The notes below the pieces were generated by a model that saw only the letters and a program-made list of their open reading frames with translations, was not told the origin of the DNA and searched no databases. A program made the translations under genes and the position numbers. 64,000 nucleotides of DNA from Planoprotostelium fungivorum (taxonomy: Eukaryota > Evosea > Variosea > Cavosteliida > Cavosteliaceae), in assembly GCA_003024175.1 (NCBI GenBank), contig MDYQ01000076.1, positions 1-64,000 of the forward strand, given 5' to 3'. Each line of letters opens with the position of its first letter. Position 1 is the stretch's first letter. Shown here piece after piece: positions 16,050 to 28,644 of this stretch.

Positions 16050-19000
16050 ATGCAACTGAAGCTGATCTTCATCGCTTTCATCGCGGTGGCTTCCTCTTTG
16101 GATCCAACCGATTGGATCAACGACGGAGGCAGTGACAGAACCGGCGCGAACTATGTGGAAGGTCACAACATGGATCCATCCATCGTGGGTGGTGATACAT
16201 TTGGCAGCATCTGGCAGAAACACTTCTCTTATCTCGGTCAAGACGAACAATTCTATGCTCATCCTCTCGTGAGCTCTCCTCTCCTCCATCTCCTTCTCAC
16301 TTTTGTCGTAGGTCTACACTCCGCCGGGTCAGCGACAGATGGTCATTGTGATCTCCGAATCCAACACCATCTACCTCTTAGACGCCGTCAATGGGACACA
16401 GATCGCCTCCCGACAGGTTCACCTTCCGTTTGCAGCGAAGGACAGTGACTGTAATGATCTCTCTCCTTGGATCGGTGTCAGCGGCACCCCAGTGATCGAT
16501 CCAGACACCTCCATCATGTACTTTTATGCAAAGACATACGCGGCCGGCACCACCAGTGGAAAATCGAATGGAAGGTACTACTTCCATGCGATTCGAATCA
16601 ATCAGAGCGATCTGGCCGAGGTAACTGGATTTCCCGTGGCCATCGATGGAACAGAAGCACCCGACAGAGGAAAAGCAGAGAATTCAAAGTGAGAAGACAT
16701 CACATCGTAATGCCACCTGTCTGAATCACACATCTCATACATCATCACAGCTATTACTTCGAGTCGGGCAAACATCACCAACGACCCGGACTCCTTCGCA
16801 TGAACAACGATGTCATCTACGCCGGTTTCGCCTCTCATTGGTACCTCCATCTCTAATCATCAATCAATGTCCAATCATCTGATCTCATCGCAGCTCCGCC
16901 GATAATTACACCGGATGGCTCATCGGCATCGACATGCATTCCGGTCGCATCGCATCTCGTCTGTCGACCGATTCAGACAGAGACACTCCACCCGGTCAAT
17001 CCTCTCCCTTTGGTGCTGGTCTGTGGGGCTCAGGCAACGCCATCGTAACCGATGATGGTGTTCGCATCTTCGCCGTGACGGGTAACGGTAATAACGGAAA
17101 CCTGGGAACGGTCCCGATTCCCGGGAAAACCCCTCCATCAGCCCTGGGAGAGTCTTGTCTCAATTGGTTGACCCATCCGAACGGTACGGCAGAGCTGCAA
17201 GACTTCTTCACGGTCCACGATCAGGCGTCATTAGACGCCGGTGATCGTGATCTCGGCAGCAGTCACTTGCACCTCTTACCTCCCTCCACCTTTCACACTC
17301 CCACGGCTCGGCGGCTGGGAATTTTGGGCGGGAAAAACCCCATCGTGTACGTCGTGAACGCCGACAATTTGGGCGGGTTCCTCAACGGTCCAGGGAAGAG
17401 TGATGACGTCATCACCACCATCGTACCCTCTGGCTCCATGTTCGGCTCCATCGCTGCGTACCCCAACGAAGGAGGTTACGTCTACCTCACTCCCGTGGGA
17501 CAGAAGACGACGGCTTATTCGTTTTCCGTGGGAAATACCGGCCAGGCGGTATTTTCCCAGGCCGGTATGACGCCGGAAGCTGCGGCCGGTCGGCAGGGTA
17601 CTGGAGCTCCAGTCATCACTAGCTTGGGGGGGAAGGCGGGAACGGCCATTTTGTGGCTGACGGACGTGGAGGGCTCAGCTCTGAGAGCGTACAATGCGGT
17701 ACCGAACGGAGATGGTGTCATGACGCCGCTCTTCTTCTCGGCGATTGGAAATGGAAAGTTTCAGAGGCCGGCGTTCGGTGATGGAAGGGTGAGATCTCTC
17801 GATGATCTCTTGATGATGATGAAGATGATTGTGATGATCATGATGATGATGATGAAGATGATTGTGATGATCATGATGATGATGACGAAGATGATTGTGA
17901 TGATCATGATGATGATGATGATGATGATTGTGATGATCATGATCATCATCCTGATCGTGAAGAAGATACTGACGGTTTAAAAGGTCTACACCGCCGGTTC
18001 AGACGGCCGCATCGTAGCTTACGGCTCTCCGACTAACTTGGCGTTGAACTGTGATCCTACCTCCAACGACTTTGGTAACCAAGTCTCTTCCGAGTCTCTC
18101 TCCATCTTACAAGTCACGTGCTCCGCCGTCGTACCCGTCACCATCACCTCGGTTACGTCGGGTAATTCCGATTTCTCCGTGGACGGTACGTACGTACCCA
18201 CCGTACCCCTCACGGCTGATTCTCCATCCTTCCGCTTCAACGTGACGTGGCATCCTTCCAAGATTGGTTCTACGGCATCAGCCATCACTCTTACACTGTC
18301 CGGGCAGCCTCAGACTTTTTCTTCCACCGTCATGATCAACGTAAGGGGAAACGGAATTTCAAGGAAACCTCTCCTGCAGCTTTTGCCTGCCGGTATCAAC
18401 TTTGGAGGGTTGATCACGGGATCGGTTGATACGATGAATGGAGTGACTTCTTCTTCTACCTTTAAGAATTTGGGACTGCAGGTGAAGTGTTTCACGATCA
18501 TCATCGCGATCAGCATCATCGCGATCGGCATCATCACGACCAGAATCATCATCACTTCATCCACTTCATCTCATCACAACGATCGTTCGTCCCTCGATCA
18601 TCATCACATAAACTGATGAAGATCATCAGACGCTCAACATCACCGGCTACACCATGTCGAATGCCTCTTTCAACGGCCCATCCACTAACGATTGCTCTCC
18701 CTTCACTCTCTACCTCCCCCCAATCTACTCCACGCTTCCCGGTGGAGCTTCCCAGGGAGTCCAATTCAATTTCAACCCCCAACGAGACGGTAGTTACGCT
18801 TGTTACGTAACGATCTACACCAACGGAAACATTGCCACCTTACTCCTCACCGGTACATCAGCCCAACCGCCCAGGGAAGTATTGCAAGTGCAGATATCAG
18901 ACGGTACTTTCATCAATTCTACCTTCATGGACTTTGGTCACGTGACCTGTGGTACCTCCATCAGCCGTACTTTCTCCATACGTAATTACGGTCCCTCGAC

Positions 19001-20745: not shown

Positions 20746-21573
20746 ATAAAGATGCAACGACTGTTTTGTTTCATTTGATCGTGAAGGAAGATGACCCTTA
20801 AGAGGGTGTCGGATGATTGAGATCGCCGAAATCTTAAGCTCTCTTCTCGCCGGCATACCGCAAATTTCACGTTAACTATCGCGGAGGCAATTTCTGTAAT
20901 CACGTGACCCAACTCAGAGCCTCCTTTTGATGATCTCCAGCAACGCAGATCAATGGCGGCTCTTGTTGGGAGAGTCGGATCACGGTGACTTTATCTCTGA
21001 AGCAACTCCATTGAAACACGACCCGCGATGATCTTTTCATGTTGAGTTAATCACAACCAAGAGAATTCAATAGACGGGTCTGAGACTCTGTTCAATGAAA
21101 TGGTTTCTTTTGAATGGATACACAACGTTGTGATGTGAAATGCGAGCCGAAGAACAGATGCGTTCTTCTTTCTATACATGTTGACTCAGATTGTCCATCA
21201 TCCAACTTCTTCATCGTTTCTACGTGCATTCATCACCCGGATGAGACGCTTCGAATCTTCGTGTTGAAAGCTAGTTAAATTAGGTTCCCTTCAGCCACGT
21301 CACATCTGGAATTAGCTCCTGCATTTAATAAAGAAATAATAGATCTATCAAATCTAAGTGTAATAGATCTCACACGATCGTAACAATTCACAAGAAACAG
21401 TTCGTTTACATTCTCCACCTCAATTAATCGTTCACACGTGCGTAGATCTATGAGATCTTGAGAGATGCAGGATCTGTACGCAATGAAGACGTACGATTTC
21501 ACATCTCTGGTTTACGCCGGAATCGCACCACAAAAAAAACACCCAAAGGAGGACCAGCACACCTCAAGCCAGC
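20746..21573. other. Noncoding stretch of about 830 bp
   Basis: Between the WSC gene and the kinase gene. A minus-strand frame near 21275-21502 has no ATG and no partner exon. Rich in short A/T runs towards the kinase start; I see no RNA gene or repeat family. Confidence 0.5.
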
Positions 21574-22501
21574 ATGCATCACCGATTCCACATCATGCAA
21601 CCACTGAATAGGGGAGCATACGGTCAACTCTATGCAGCGAAGGATAAGGAGACGGGCAAGAGAGTGGTCGTCAAAGTCATCAAGAAGCTAGAAGAAGGCG
21701 ACAGAGGACTCATTGCGAGAGAGATCAAGGCCAACGCGACGATGAAAGGAACGAAGGGAATTTGCACGTTACACGGATACTACGACGAGGGGAGACAGAC
21801 GGTAAACGATGCGATGGAATGATTCCTCGTTTCTAAATGCATTATAGAGTTTGATCTTTGACCTCATTCACGGAGCCGATCTCTTCACAATATTGCAAAG
21901 AAGGGACTTTCAGCCATTGCCGGAGAATTTGGTGTGGAAGATCATCAGCCAGGTTGCAGCCGCTCTGTTCGCTTGTCACCAGAAGGGCATCGCTCATAGA
22001 GATGTGAAATTGGAAAACGTGAGAACACAGACAACGCCTTCAATTCGACCTCTAAATCCACACCAGATCATGGTCGAGGGCGACCGCGTCTACTTGATCG
22101 ATTTTGGACTGTGCACCTTCTTTAAAGTCACAGCTGGAAAGGAGAGCCTCTCATCCAAATACTGTGGAAGGTGCGAAATGACATCACACACAACACACTC
22201 ATCTTTCATACAGCCCCGAATACATCTCACCCGAGCACCTCGAACAGATTCCTTTAAGAGCTACACAAGTCGACGCCTGGGCGTTGGGCATCACGGCGTA
22301 TGCACTGCTCTTTGGTGTCTTTCCGTATGGCGCCTGGATGAGATGCTGACGACATTTGACAACTGCTCGACGATACCGTTACCACCTGATACGGAAGATG
22401 TCGTTGTATCTAGAGGAATGAGAGATCGACTCGCGCAGCTGCTCACCATTGATCCAACGAAGAGGTCGAGCGTCAAGATCATGATGGACTCTCCCCAGTA
22501 A
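21574..22501 (+). CDS. Small Ser/Thr protein kinase
   Basis: The catalytic set is present: a glycine loop LNRGAYGQLYAAK, Lys in VVVKVIKK, HRDVKLEN as catalytic loop, LIDFGLCTF as metal-binding DFG, and PEYISPEHL before the alpha-F region with VDAWALGITAYALLFGVFPYG. Introns near 21802-21847, 22020-22068 and 22171-22213 splice cleanly. The kinase domain fills the protein; there is no obvious regulatory tail. One oddity: after FPYG (about 22330) the expected continuation (DEMLTTFDNC...MDSPQ, stop at 22499-22501) is in a different frame. Either a one-base shift has hit this gene or sequence, or a very short intron of about 26 nt removes FPYG. Family resembles CAMK/SNF1-type kinases, but this is not decisive. 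Confidence 0.7.
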
Positions 22502-23113
22502 TATCAATCGTGTAGATAAAGACTGTATAGCATTTGTAAGCGTCTCGATTGTGTTCCCTCGCATCACATGGAGCGTCTGATCATGGACGAATTTACCAGA
22601 GAATCACCCTGAGTCTGACCGACACTGGATAGTGGTGATCTAGGTGACGACTGCGAGCTCCTCGAAAGGGTGACGCTCTTCAGCGCGGTGCATCGCTACA
22701 CACGCAGGTGACAACAAGTAAGAACAAAAAAGGGTGCAATGTTTCCACCAATCTAGCTTTAGTCTCATGATTGAAGATGTCTGGGTTGTTGTGTTGCCCA
22801 CTCCACGGCCCTTGGGGTGTCGAATTAGAGCGGACAGGGGAAACATTGCACCCCGATCACTTCAGCGAACAGTGAGGGTGTCTACCGTTTAAACCGGCTC
22901 GAGACAAATATTATGGTCGGTGGCAGTGATGACGGGTGACGATCAGTAATGACTTGACCGAACGAGTTTCTCGATCGGAATGATGTGACAGCACCGTCAT
23001 CATTGTCTGTAGAGAACAATTATAAGCGATACAAAGAGTCAGACAATGCGATCACGACTTCATCCTGAACCACGACTGGTAATGACGTGGACTCATCATC
23101 CAGCAAAAAGGTG
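22502..23113. other. Noncoding stretch of about 610 bp with a long inverted repeat
   Basis: Between the kinase gene and the tRNA. Its one clear structure is a 15-bp inverted repeat, listed separately. Nothing else recognised. Confidence 0.5.
22732..22853. repeat. 15-bp perfect inverted repeat, 122-bp span
   Basis: GGGTGCAATGTTTCC at 22732-22746 is mirrored exactly by GGAAACATTGCACCC at 22839-22853. The 92 bp between arms contain no ORF. Could be a hairpin RNA, a small non-autonomous DNA transposon end pair, or chance. Confidence 0.5.
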
Positions 23114-23184
23114 TTCCCTCACCGGGAGTCGAACCCGGGGCTCAAGAGTGAGAGTCTTGGATGTTACCGCTACACCATAAGGGA
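23114..23184 (-). tRNA. tRNA-Glu (anticodon CUC)
   Basis: On the minus strand the 71-nt sequence folds as a cloverleaf: acceptor arm TCCCTTA with TGAGGGA, discriminator A, A-box-like TGGTGTAGCGG, anticodon stem CAAGA/TCTTG enclosing the loop CTCTCAC (anticodon CUC), and a T arm with CCGGG-TTCGACT-CCCGG serving as B box. A TTTTT run just downstream (23105-23109 read on the minus strand) fits a Pol III terminator. No intron. The CCA is not encoded. Confidence 0.93.
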
Positions 23185-23242: not shown

Positions 23243-26200
23243 TCATCCGTTGTAGATGTTCTCGTCTGTCTCATTGTAGATCTTCCCTTGCAGCCTACCA
23301 CCTCCTAATTTGACACCCACTTGCATCATTCTCCACCTCTTCTCTTTCCTCTGCATCGTACTGTCCTCCATCAACCTCCCCTCGCGATTCGATCATCTCA
23401 CCATGCACCGATGATGTCCATCCAAACGTCTGGTTCTTCTCCCGTGTCTTTCCTTCTCTTCTTCAATCGATCGAATAAGACTCCATAAGCGTATCTGTGA
23501 TCGTGTCACGATGATGATGATGAGGTTGAAGATGACGATGCACATGTCTCCCTCGATGGTGGGTTTTGGATCAGTTTTCATTTCGGGTGCCTACATCGAT
23601 TAGACAAGTGAAGACGATGACAAGTGATGATGAGGATGATAGACACACGATGATGATGAGTCGACGTGATGGCGATCGATGATGAGATGATGAGGAAACA
23701 GAACACTCACGATATATCCTTCCATGTCAGCCGTAATCCGAGCGTTTTCATCTGATCCGTAGGCCGATATCTTCCCGTGAAGAGACGAAGTGAGGTACAC
23801 TTTCCTTGGGCACAACCTGCCATGCACTATTTCATTCTCGTGCAAGTAATTGAGGCCAGCCGCGATGTCTCTCATTCTACAACGAGTCACATCTTATCAT
23901 TTCATTCGACTCTCACATATTCTGTATGGTGTCGCCGTCCAGCGTCTTCCTCATGCACTGAAATTTCAGTGAGATTTCACGGTGTAATCGGATGTGCCAC
24001 TCACATCATGTAGAATACCACCTTCCATGCGTTCTACAACGAGACACATCTTATTCTCTTCGAAATAAGCTCCCAGGTACATCAATACATTCGGATGATG
24101 TAGACCCTACCGCGATGCCATCAACGACATCTCATCGATGACGTCATCACACGTCACCTTCAATCGATTCGCTTCACTGGACAGCGACTCTGATGCCTGC
24201 GGATCGTTTGCCTTCTTCACCACGACGACAGTTGTTCCCGCCCTCTTTGCCTCGTAGACCGTGCAACGTGTTCCTCTACCGATCTCTCTCACGATTTCGA
24301 TGTCCTGCATCGATTGGATGGAATGGATGGAGGATGGACTCACCGTGGAGGAGGAGTTGAGTTCCATTGGAGTGTATGACTTCTTCTGGTGTCTCTTGAT
24401 GAAGAATACAACGATCAATACGACTGATCATCGTCATCATCATCATCATCGAGATCATGTCGTGATCATGTGAGATGATGTCCACTCACGTAAAATGACA
24501 GGGATGACACCCAATATACCCAATAGAGCCATTCGATTCAAGCCTTCTCCCTTCACCTCCCCCTCCACGTCTGCCACGTTCATCATTGTGGCCAGCGTGA
24601 AATTGGTCAGGTGAGAGCAGAGGCAAGTGACCCCGGCGTCCTCTTTCAGCGTCTCGCAGCCTCGTGGGCTCCATCCTTTCTCTCTCTCTTCCCAATACAC
24701 ACAGGTTGTGTCTACAACGGTGAGTGTCCGACATCATTATCGATAAATTATTACTCGGTTTCGCGTTGTAGAAGGTGACGGAGATAGGGTGAAGGGTGTC
24801 GGTTACGTTCGAGTACGTACCATTATTGTAGAGACTCAATCCGATGACATCATAAGTCCTACGCTCGATCAGTCGAGACGTTCGTCGCGATATCATACGT
24901 ACACGGTCCAATTGGCATCGATCGTGAATGGATTGAACGGAATCCTGCTGAATAAGAAAGTCTTTCTCGATGTGATGTTGATCGCATCGAGTTCATCGAT
25001 GATGGATCTTGGAATGGTAAACTTGGCGTCGTTCAATTTCCCTTCGGTGGCGTTTGTGTTCTGTTTGTATCAATTTTGGTGCAAGTGTGGGAGATCATGA
25101 TGAGGTGTGATCCATGATGATGTGATGACGTGACGATGAGACGGTGATGTGGACTCACGTTGGAAATGACAGCGGCGTGAAGAGATATTCCATTCTTACT
25201 AGTGTAGTCTAGCGAATCTTTCGACTTCAGCCCAAGGTCCACGACACCCTCCATCGTCCCGAATATTTGTGACACCGATGCACCCTCTCTCAGGACATCT
25301 AACCCATCCCATGGGCTTACGTACGCTACGTACGTGGTGAAAGTTACGTTCGGATATTGATTCCAGTACACTTGGACCGTGATATTGGAAGAGGCCAAGT
25401 CTGTAGGCAGCGTGAAATTTGCTGCGAAATTTGCTCCTCCGACAATCTGGCACGTGGTGTTGGTGTCACTCTGAAGACTCCAGCAGAGCGTCGAATTCCG
25501 AGATTGATCCACCGTAGGTCCGGCGTTGGTTCCTGACGGGGTGAGATGAGTGATGTCTTTCATCTCACCTTCGATGTAGAGGATGGATGAGGCAGATGGG
25601 ATGATGGCCGATGTGATGTTGGGTGATGGATATGGCAAGGACAAGTGAGTGTATGTTCCAATGGGGTCAAGTATGTAGACATCAGCGGTGCCGTATCCGG
25701 GGGAATAATAGAAGATGATGTTGGTGTCATTCAAAACTGTGATGCTGGGCCCATAGTTGCCGGGACTCGAATTCTCTATCAAAAGGTAACCACCATCTGT
25801 GGACCACGGAGGTGCCGTATTGTTGACATACGGTTTTACGGAAAAGATCATAGTGCTGTTCCAGATGGGAGAGGGACTTGAAAGAGAATACAGGTGGAGG
25901 ACACCATCGTCGGCGAGGAAGAGGAGAGCGTTCGCCGTTGGCTCAGGTTTGATAGTTGGATGCCACAGGGAGGCGGTTGAATTACGAAAGACGAAGTTGC
26001 CACCTAGTGTCGATTGAGTGAGCGCTCGAATGAGCCACGACACGTTTTACTTTTGATCGAAATGTAGTATGAGCCCTGAGGAGACGGTCGGTTCTGATAA
26101 GTTTGGTTCAGTGCCCATCTTGCATAGTTTGGGTTCAAATAGTGAACGATCCGTGGCCCTGTAGTGGTCACCTGCGGATGTCGGATGTATGTCCATTTCA

Positions 26201-26409
26201 TACATTCTAGTGATTACCTCTAATTTCCACTTTCCATTCGTGGAGACGAGAGGCAAGCTGTTTACATCCGAGGTGATGTTATAATTCGTTGAACTGTTGA
26301 GAAACTTGTAGCCCGAAAAGTACGGTGGATCTAACGAGTTCAATGGTGTATCATATCCAAAGACTGATAGAACTCCTAGAAGAAAGAATAAGAAGCCCCT
26401 GTGCATCAT
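23243..26409 (-). CDS. Single-pass receptor with GPS (GAIN) motif and cytoplasmic pseudokinase domain
   Basis: The start is ATG 26407-26409, giving signal peptide MMHRGFLFFLLGVLSVFG. The ectodomain (about 600 residues, many N-x-S/T sites) ends in a GPS motif near 24590-24706: CVYWEEREKGW, GC, TCLCSHLTNFTLA, with the four Cys, both Trp and the H-L-T self-cleavage triad known from adhesion GPCRs and polycystins. One TM follows (MALLGILGVIPVIL spliced to IVVFFIKRHQKK). The inside is kinase-like: IGRGTRCTVYEAK, Lys in VVVVKKAN, LHENEIVHGRLCPRKVYL, KISAYGSDE, APEMK, GDIYAYGVLFD, stop near 23243. The HRD Asp is replaced (HGR) and DFG reads AYG, so catalysis is unlikely. At least seven introns, several containing CTACAACG half-sites. 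Architecture is inferred by joining exons by eye. Confidence 0.72.
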
Positions 26410-26548: not shown

Positions 26549-28644
26549 TCACTGTCCCACAGGCTTCCCCCTTCCCATGGGAAAGCCTCGGGTGCCGTCG
26601 GGGCCCTTTGGTTGTCTGATAGGCTGTACACCCTCCTTCGGCTCGCTACCGGTGGTTCCTGCCCTGGGTCTCAGATTCAGCCTGGGCCTCTCCGTCACAA
26701 TCGTTTGGGCCTCCTCCGGCTTGCTGGCACCCCTGGGAGGCTCAGTGGAGTACGTACGTAAGGTACGTACCTCTTCTTCCTCTCACCCCTTTTGTCTTGG
26801 TAGTAGTTGAAGGTGGGGACGGTCTCGTAGATGGAATTGGTGGCGTCGGGCTGTGCACCGTTTTGTGGTTGAGAATTGGATGCATGGGTTGGAGTGTGGG
26901 GTGGACTCATCCGAGTGGGCTCTCTTCTCGGGCTCGGCTCGTCCTGCACATGACGATCAGTCTCATCGTCTCATCATCATCTGCGAATGAGCACGATCAT
27001 CATCGAGATGATCATCTCGACCAGATCGCGATGACGATCGCCGATCGCACGATGATGTGATGATGATCACCTGATGTCCTATGATCGAGCTGAGATCTTG
27101 GATCGCAAGACCCTGCAGCGCGTTGGATGGTGTCTGGGAGCTCGTGTTCTGTTGGTACTGTTGCTGCAAGTAACGATGCTGAGGTGAAGTCGCCGCGGGG
27201 CTCGAATGGTTCGGAGTCGTCTCAGGTGAAGTCAACTGCTGGTGGTCACGTGACCCGAAATTTCATCGAAATTTACCTGACTGCCGGACTTGTTCGTGTA
27301 CTGTCTCACTCTCATTCCCAGCTTGAAGAAGTCATTGTTGCGATCACTGAAATATGCGATCGCCCTGCGAGCCTGCTTCCTGCTCTCAAACTCTACGAAT
27401 GCGATTCCCTTGATCTCTCCCGACTTTTTGTCGACAGGTATGTCGACCCTCTTGATGGTACCACATATACCAAAAATTCCCCTTTTTTCGGTCATCTACA
27501 ACGCTGTAGACGGTGGCTCACCGGACGGACTCTTGGGTAGAATGTTTGGGGAGGTAACAGATGTAGATGGTACGTCTCTCCCTCTGCTCTTCGCTGAGAG
27601 GATAGATGTAAGGGTTGATCCTCCTGACCTGGAGGAATCAGGGGCGTTGTAGATGGATGGTCTCACCTTGTCGCCGCTCTTGTTCAATTTGAGAAAAGTG
27701 GACTCGCGAATGGCAGCCCTTTTCTCGTTCAGAACGATAAAGAAATAAAACATCGTAAATGATTCGACGATCTACAACGTTGTAGATGGATGTAGCATCA
27801 CACGATGCATCATCATGGTGAATAAATATTCGAAAATAAATGGTTCATGTCATCAGATCAATAGAAGGGAGAAGCTCACTTGATATCGTCGATGGTGGCA
27901 GTGAATCTCTTCACTCGCTGGAAGGTGGCTAACAATTCTACGGGGATGTAGCCCTGCCCGTTCTCATCTTTCTCAAACTCCTTCTCTAAGAACTTGTCAC
28001 GAGCGAGGTTCTCATCTGAAAAGTAATATTCCAATTGGGCCAAGAGCTGCTGCAGATGACCATGTCAATGGAGGATCGATCCGATGTATTTGGATGGGAA
28101 TGGATGTTGTGATTGCGGCTCACCTTTCGTACGTTATTGGGCTCGGCGTTGTTGGTTTCGTTGGAGGTGGTAGTGGATGGAGTGGCCGAGTTGGGATCAG
28201 AAGGAGAAGAGGTGGAACCTGCATTGTCTTTAATGGACATCCGTTGTGTGGAGAGAAAGAGATAGAGCTCACTCTCTGCGTTCTGAACCTTTCCAGCTTC
28301 CTTCTTCTTCTCCGATGGTCTCCTCTGTCGGTTGCGTTTGGGTTTAGCAGTTCCATCTTCGTTTGAAGCAGTTGTGTTCGAAGAGGATGAAGTACTTTCT
28401 GCAATTTCGCGTGAGCGTCGATGAGTGATGGATATAAATGGGGTCATTGATTGGATTCACCTGCCGAAGGGCTCTTCACTTCGAAAGTGTTGCTAACTTC
28501 CACGGACGTTTGAGTGGAAAGAGAGGCGGTGACCGAGCTAGATTGATCTCCCTATATAGAGATGAGATCCGATAGAACATCTATCCTCACGTTATTGCCC
28601 CACAATAATCCTTTGACTCCTTGAGTCAACGAATTTAGGTCCAT
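26549..28644 (-). CDS. LARP6: La-related protein, LARP6 type
   Basis: RNA-binding protein with a La module. The ATG is at 28642-28644 (MDLNSLTQGVKG). A Ser/Thr/Asn-rich, basic N-terminus is followed by the La motif (QLLAQLEYYFSDENLARDKF, then GYIPVELLATFQRVK and ESTFLKLNKSGDKV), then an RRM whose RNP2 is IYICYLP and RNP1 is KGIAFVEF. A Gln/Ser/Pro-rich linker precedes the C-terminal PKGPDGTRGFPMGRGKP, which matches the SUZ-C motif diagnostic of LARP6. The stop is TGA at 26549-26551. In LARP6 the La module binds structured mRNA 5' regions. At least seven introns; one holds a perfect and one a near-perfect copy of the 16-bp palindrome. Confidence 0.85.
27771..27786. repeat. Intronic 16-bp perfect palindrome TCTACAACGTTGTAGA
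   Basis: Third perfect copy, inside the LARP6 intron between the two halves of the La motif. Confidence 0.8.

Follow-up and report, generated by a model that had tools for sequence, protein, structure and literature searches.

Self-cleavage at the GPS motif has been studied almost wholly in seven-transmembrane (7TM) receptors, in which the pocket of the 7TM domain receives the freed strand as an agonist. Plant G-type lectin and LRR receptor kinases carry a bulb lectin or LRRs outside the cell, one transmembrane (TM) segment and a related kinase fold inside, and receptor pseudokinases such as HER3 combine a non-catalytic kinase domain with tail tyrosines. GAIN domains outside animals are not new. 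In the sections available to us, the Drosophila Cirl 1TM isoform is described as a GAIN receptor with a single TM segment (PMC13197933), and the GPCR-TKL/K fusions of choanoflagellates, oomycetes and amoebozoans as a receptor joined to a TKL-type kinase (PMC12716839). Here we describe a gene of Planoprotostelium fungivorum that places a GPS motif before one TM segment and a kinase-like domain, and the family to which it belongs. The gene lies in a stretch of 64,000 nucleotides (contig MDYQ01000076.1 of assembly GCA_003024175.1, positions 1 to 64,000), which we call the window.

Results

The receptor gene occupies 23243..26409 on the minus strand, running in the spliced model from an ATG at 26409 to a stop codon that ends at 23243. 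This coding region comprises 14 exons joined across 13 GT-AG introns of 39-120 nt in an intact 811-aa frame, and a spliced aligner given the 811-aa protein returned the identical 14-exon model. Exons 1-7 lie at 26218-26409, 26051-26171, 25159-26003, 24903-25060, 24755-24858, 24490-24711 and 24344-24423, and exons 8-14 at 24158-24304, 24005-24106, 23917-23957, 23711-23876, 23544-23590, 23402-23494 and 23243-23360 (all minus strand). An in-frame TAG at 24109-24107 and a stop near 26047 both fall inside short introns; at the site of the TAG, paralog L026 lacks the inserted stretch and paralog L009 has an intron. The intron positions of the gene are common to its clade. Its neighbours look ordinary: protein kinase exons at 21487-22501 on the plus strand, with a frame at 21848-22501 that reads HRD and DFG, a tRNA-Glu at 23113-23184, and La and RRM exons at 27232-28064 on the minus strand. 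Further off, a repeat at ~17800-17957 of the window is dispersed through the genome in dozens of partial copies.

The protein begins with a putative signal peptide recognised by eye (~aa 1-18, 26356..26409, minus strand) and has 24 N-glycosylation sequons, 22 of them before aa 513. The GPS motif (24593..24706, minus strand) was identified by Pfam at aa 476-513 (PF01825, E 3.6e-11, 43.8 bits against a cut-off of 22.5), with a predicted cleavage site at H507-L508-T509, between L508 and T509 (HL/T below); by profile, its presence is certain. Kyte-Doolittle hydropathy gives one segment over threshold, aa 536-554 (24404..24526, minus strand, split by the intron 24424-24489), and not the 7TM domain of an adhesion GPCR. 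On the joined protein Pfam reports the GPS and then PK_Tyr_Ser-Thr, with the one TM between them, and both domains are significant in a single model, as an HMM search proposed with the first-pass annotation was meant to establish. That annotation had read 23243..26409 as one spliced receptor gene, rightly; its glycosylation-rich ectodomain, its GPS with Cys/Trp set and H-L-T site, its single TM before a kinase-like domain, and HGR and AYG in place of HRD and DFG all agree with the spliced model. The E-values, together with the intron positions common to the clade, exclude a chance origin of this layout.

We then asked how far the module extends upstream of the GPS, where a GAIN domain has its beta-sandwich subdomain B. 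A GAIN-like region including the GPS may span ~aa 340-513 (exons 3-6, 24593..25299, minus strand), for which profile matches to the part upstream of the GPS are suggestive. Ten aligned GPS regions, that of the window gene and those of spliced paralogs, served as a profile against PDB sequences: adhesion GPCRs made up 23 of 25 matches at E up to 1, the best being ADGRG6 (7.7e-15), whose alignment covers positions 24-169 of 170, and the best matches reach ~100 positions upstream of the GPS. As proof of a whole GAIN domain, this profile fell when the GPS was removed. The remaining 140 positions gave no significant GAIN match in the PDB, and the five matches at E up to 10 comprised MPT70, an unrelated protein, in first place (0.022), ADGRG2 at 0.72 and 5.6, and two others. 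When the GPS-less profile was compared by hhalign with a profile of four adhesion-GPCR stretches, 73 columns aligned in the expected register at a probability of 21% (P 0.001); two control profile-profile comparisons gave 0.1% and 1.1%. In the region of the helical subdomain A, the upstream part could be aligned in few members only. Thus, of the GAIN/GPS domain proposed at first, the GPS stands, and the upstream GAIN part does not reach significance by itself. Because GPS motifs of known structure lie within GAIN domains, a full GAIN domain around this GPS is nonetheless likely. H-x-T/S occurs at the GPS in 60/60 modelled family members, a count biased by the finding of these loci through their GPS. 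Six members (L020, L062, L066, L074, L075 and L076) have a GPS without the Cys two before the His but with HLT kept, and L076 has further lost the Cys that follows the second Trp.

On the other side of the membrane, the kinase-like domain spans ~aa 576-795 (exons 8-14, 23294..24301, minus strand). The Pfam match itself covers aa 576-749 (PF07714, E 4.1e-26; PF00069, E 6e-24), which identifies a protein kinase fold; PF07714 and the best PDB matches point to the TKL type. Within exon 11 (23711..23876, minus strand), the HRD motif reads HGR (aa 689) and the DFG motif reads AYG (aa 709). The HRD-Asp is thereby replaced by Arg, the catalytic-loop Asn by Lys and the DFG-Asp by Ala, so the domain lacks both Asp of an active kinase; it retains a glycine loop, the beta-3 Lys, the alpha-C Glu and APE. 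The combination of HGR and an Ala in place of the DFG-Asp is shared by 11 models (10 distinct), which form one clade in a midpoint-rooted FastTree tree (local support 0.869).

Catalytic loss extends through the family. Among the 60 GPS-linked kinase-like domains, the beta-3 Lys is present in 40 and the alpha-C Glu in 43, the HRD-Asp in 5 and the DFG-Asp in 14. The Lys and both Asp are all kept in two models, L052 and L055, so a dead kinase is not an obligatory part of the layout, and in none of the 41 models (36 distinct) that were not chosen by kinase proximity. Both Asp positions read D in 3 of 54 distinct GPS-linked models, versus 15 of 16 kinases away from listed GPS motifs, a control drawn from high-scoring kinase matches (and so leaning canonical) and read by eye at the Asp columns only. 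The sole exception in the control, L083 (C27:45845-46050), reads HQR and NFG and so has neither Asp. On contigs C196, C335 and C1, GPS receptors that resemble one another occur in clusters (L010, L013-L016, L018, L021-L024), and their kinase-like domains are very degenerate.

The genome holds 150 scored GPS matches out of 176 candidates. The spliced models in which the GPS is followed by a TM segment and a kinase-like domain number 60, of which 54 are distinct (under 90% nucleotide identity). Every GPS locus modelled has this domain order. The first-pass annotation had suggested a distinct signalling layout; the order itself was confirmed, and the receptor proved to be one of many in its genome that share it. 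The gene number should be below 150, because 6 of the 60 models fall within 90% of another. Besides the window gene, the 60 comprise 21 models from the top-scoring GPS loci, a batch of 19 of which 18 were picked for a nearby kinase match (the other being L060), and 19 more from the upper half of the list of GPS matches. Of the lower half, only kinase-linked loci were sampled, and the kinase-like domains were recognised by aligning the models with one another. They were retained from 65 models after removal of L011, L013_7952, L022 and L070 (under 250 residues) and of L059 (GPS not recovered); splicing is partly wrong in L041 and in several models from the CVWWDNST cluster. On 17 joined models, Pfam placed the GPS over cut-off in 17 and a kinase family over cut-off in 15 (not in L015 and L023_4004). 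The linker from HL/T to the TM measures 10-44 residues in 59 of the 60 models and 131 in one, and four have a second hydrophobic segment after the GPS.

We compared substitution rates over the GPS-to-kinase region in 22 pairs. A dN/dS ratio was obtained for 19, of which 17 lie at 0.09-0.45 and two at 0.69-0.70, with dS saturated in the wider pairs; mostly purifying selection is the fair reading. A second copy of the window gene (window contig C5) lies on contig C120 (L019), in a region that is syntenic and in part inverted. From aa 387 on the copies differ by 2 nucleotides and no amino acid, which is uninformative on selection because the introns are nearly all identical too. Across aa 111-230 dN and dS are both 0.38, and in the lectin-like part (window 25600-26400) the copies differ at up to ~35 per 100 bases. 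The pair may be alleles or the product of a duplication.

The ectodomain contains a candidate bulb (mannose-binding) lectin-like domain at ~aa 50-160 (exons 1-3, 25837..26262, minus strand), identified by profiles against the PDB. A four-member profile gave 27 matches at E up to 10, all assigned to the bulb-lectin family, for all but a few by molecule name; pyocin L1 was best (1.4e-9), and the snowdrop-type agglutinin 1jpc matched at 2.8e-6. One row of this profile was joined by hand; with that row taken out, the three-member profile gave 17 PDB matches (best 3.5e-5), 16 from the lectin family, the remaining match being a polyhedrin fusion (E 2.2). By profile, then, the region appears to belong to the bulb-type lectins. 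In single-sequence Pfam searches B_lectin matched two of the four members under cut-off (best 0.0052) and did not match the window protein; a B_lectin search of the genome gave no match, and since no control was recovered either, this shows little. Of ten ectodomain frames taken from relatives, four gave LRR families over cut-off (L012, L020, L027 and L028), three gave no more than sub-threshold matches (TIG, B_lectin, LRR), and the other three gave no match. The ectodomain is bulb-lectin-like in the window receptor and LRR in several relatives.

The C-terminal tail reads YNETDENIYNG before the stop (23243..23278, minus strand) and carries a terminal tyrosine, Y809. Tail counts cover 40 of the 60 models, those read to the stop, and were set against shuffles that correct for composition only. 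Of these 40 tails, 35 have a tyrosine among their final 12 residues, against a mean of 15.1 and a maximum of 26 in 1000 shuffles. In 28, an acidic residue stands at most four positions ahead of a Tyr that lies among the final 16 residues (shuffle mean 8.3, maximum 18 in 1000). With near-duplicates counted once, 33 of 37 have the tail Tyr, and L055, L010, L012_46 and L080 do not. The genome also has 79 SH2 matches and kinases reading HRDLA-x-RN, which we take to be a signature. A phosphotyrosine outlet through the tail Tyr and SH2 proteins is therefore plausible from sequence. In some members the terminal Tyr may be an endocytic signal; Y809 in the window gene has no +3 residue.

Discussion

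We tentatively favour, at somewhat less than an even chance, a reading of these proteins as lectin or LRR receptors that combine a cleavage motif with a non-catalytic kinase scaffold: single-pass, cut in GAIN fashion at HL/T, and signalling through tyrosine and SH2 domains. The window protein would be a single-pass surface receptor that uses its exposed bulb-lectin-like domain to bind a ligand, which is probably a carbohydrate. A GAIN-type module, its GPS next to the membrane, would be cut at HL/T during maturation and would hold the two fragments together, and the cytoplasmic TKL-type pseudokinase would serve, without enzymatic activity, as a scaffold or allosteric partner. The fragments could be parted or rearranged by a ligand or by pulling, which could alter receptor pairing and allow a partner kinase to phosphorylate the C-terminal tyrosine so that SH2 proteins can read it. 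For this receptor the tethered-agonist idea is a poor fit, because HL/T is followed by a linker and one TM and there is no 7TM pocket.

Instead of being cut, the GPS region could be an adhesion or folding module, with signalling through ligand-driven pairing of the ordinary kind. Many adhesion GPCRs probably act without being cleaved, the six members noted above have an altered GPS, and the GAIN fold upstream of the GPS is not significant when searched alone; the universal H-x-T/S speaks against this, though in loci chosen by GPS score, and we judge an uncut module unlikely while giving it real weight. It is improbable, though not negligibly so, that the pseudokinase has no role of its own and that the protein is a decoy or co-receptor, which titrates ligand or pairs with the few members in which catalytic residues survive, such as L052 and L055: those two of 60 do keep the Lys and both Asp, but the cytoplasmic part of the family is mostly constrained and carries the Tyr tail.

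An active kinase in which other residues do the work of the two catalytic Asp would fit the retained beta-3 Lys, alpha-C Glu, glycine loop and APE; the simultaneous changes of HRD-Asp to Arg, catalytic-loop Asn to Lys and DFG-Asp to Ala make this very improbable. A decaying pseudogene of a kinase receptor, suggested by the lost catalytic residues and by the strong difference between the C5 and C120 ectodomains, is harder still to credit, given an intact 811-aa frame, identical changes in nine other distinct paralogs and dN/dS mostly below 0.5; we reject it because the in-frame stops are intronic and the degenerate motifs are shared among paralogs. Least probable is the wrong joining of two adjacent genes. 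The joined model does rest on sequence, but the TM is split by the intron that joins exons 6 and 7, and we reject this reading because the intron positions are shared across the clade and the order of GPS, TM and kinase-like domain recurs in 60 models, though these were made by mutual alignment.

Taken more broadly, the family might constitute a third large GAIN class, of self-cleaving single-pass lectin or LRR recognition receptors of a protist, on the order of a hundred genes with most kinases dead and a phosphotyrosine-to-SH2 output, a proposal that we regard as possible but doubtful. A large family with a GPS and one TM would reveal what cleavage does without a 7TM pocket, for example shedding or force release. 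With loss of catalysis as the rule and the fold and tail Tyr kept, it offers a natural set for testing receptor pseudokinase function, and it could test whether protists recognise prey or kin via lectin and LRR receptors.

We met no GPS-1TM-kinase receptor in the literature available to us in part, including PMC12716839, PMC13197933, PMC11697300, PMC4758236 and PMC4053784, and a prior annotation is possible; the main texts of PMC4758236 and PMC4053784 contain no word starting with GPS. Adhesion GPCRs resemble the window receptor in the H-L/T site and Cys/Trp set of their GPS, in a large and variable ectodomain and in the profile matches, but have a 7TM domain where it has one TM and a kinase-like domain; a 7tm_2 search of the genome gave no match, a weak negative in that no control was recovered. 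Polycystin-1 and PKD1-like proteins likewise have a GPS outside GPCRs, whereas the window protein has one TM and no REJ, PLAT or channel family among its six Pfam families at E up to 10. The Cirl 1TM form differs in being an isoform of a 7TM receptor, with no kinase domain mentioned in the sections available (PMC13197933), and the GPCR-TKL/K fusions in being 7TM, with no GPS-1TM-kinase layout described in those of PMC12716839. Unlike HER3, the window receptor has a GPS, another ectodomain and another lineage. Compared with plant G-type lectin and LRR receptor kinases, it lacks S-locus and PAN among the Pfam families matched and has a GPS module added; placed before a single TM and a kinase-like domain, this is an unusual layout for the GPS motif.
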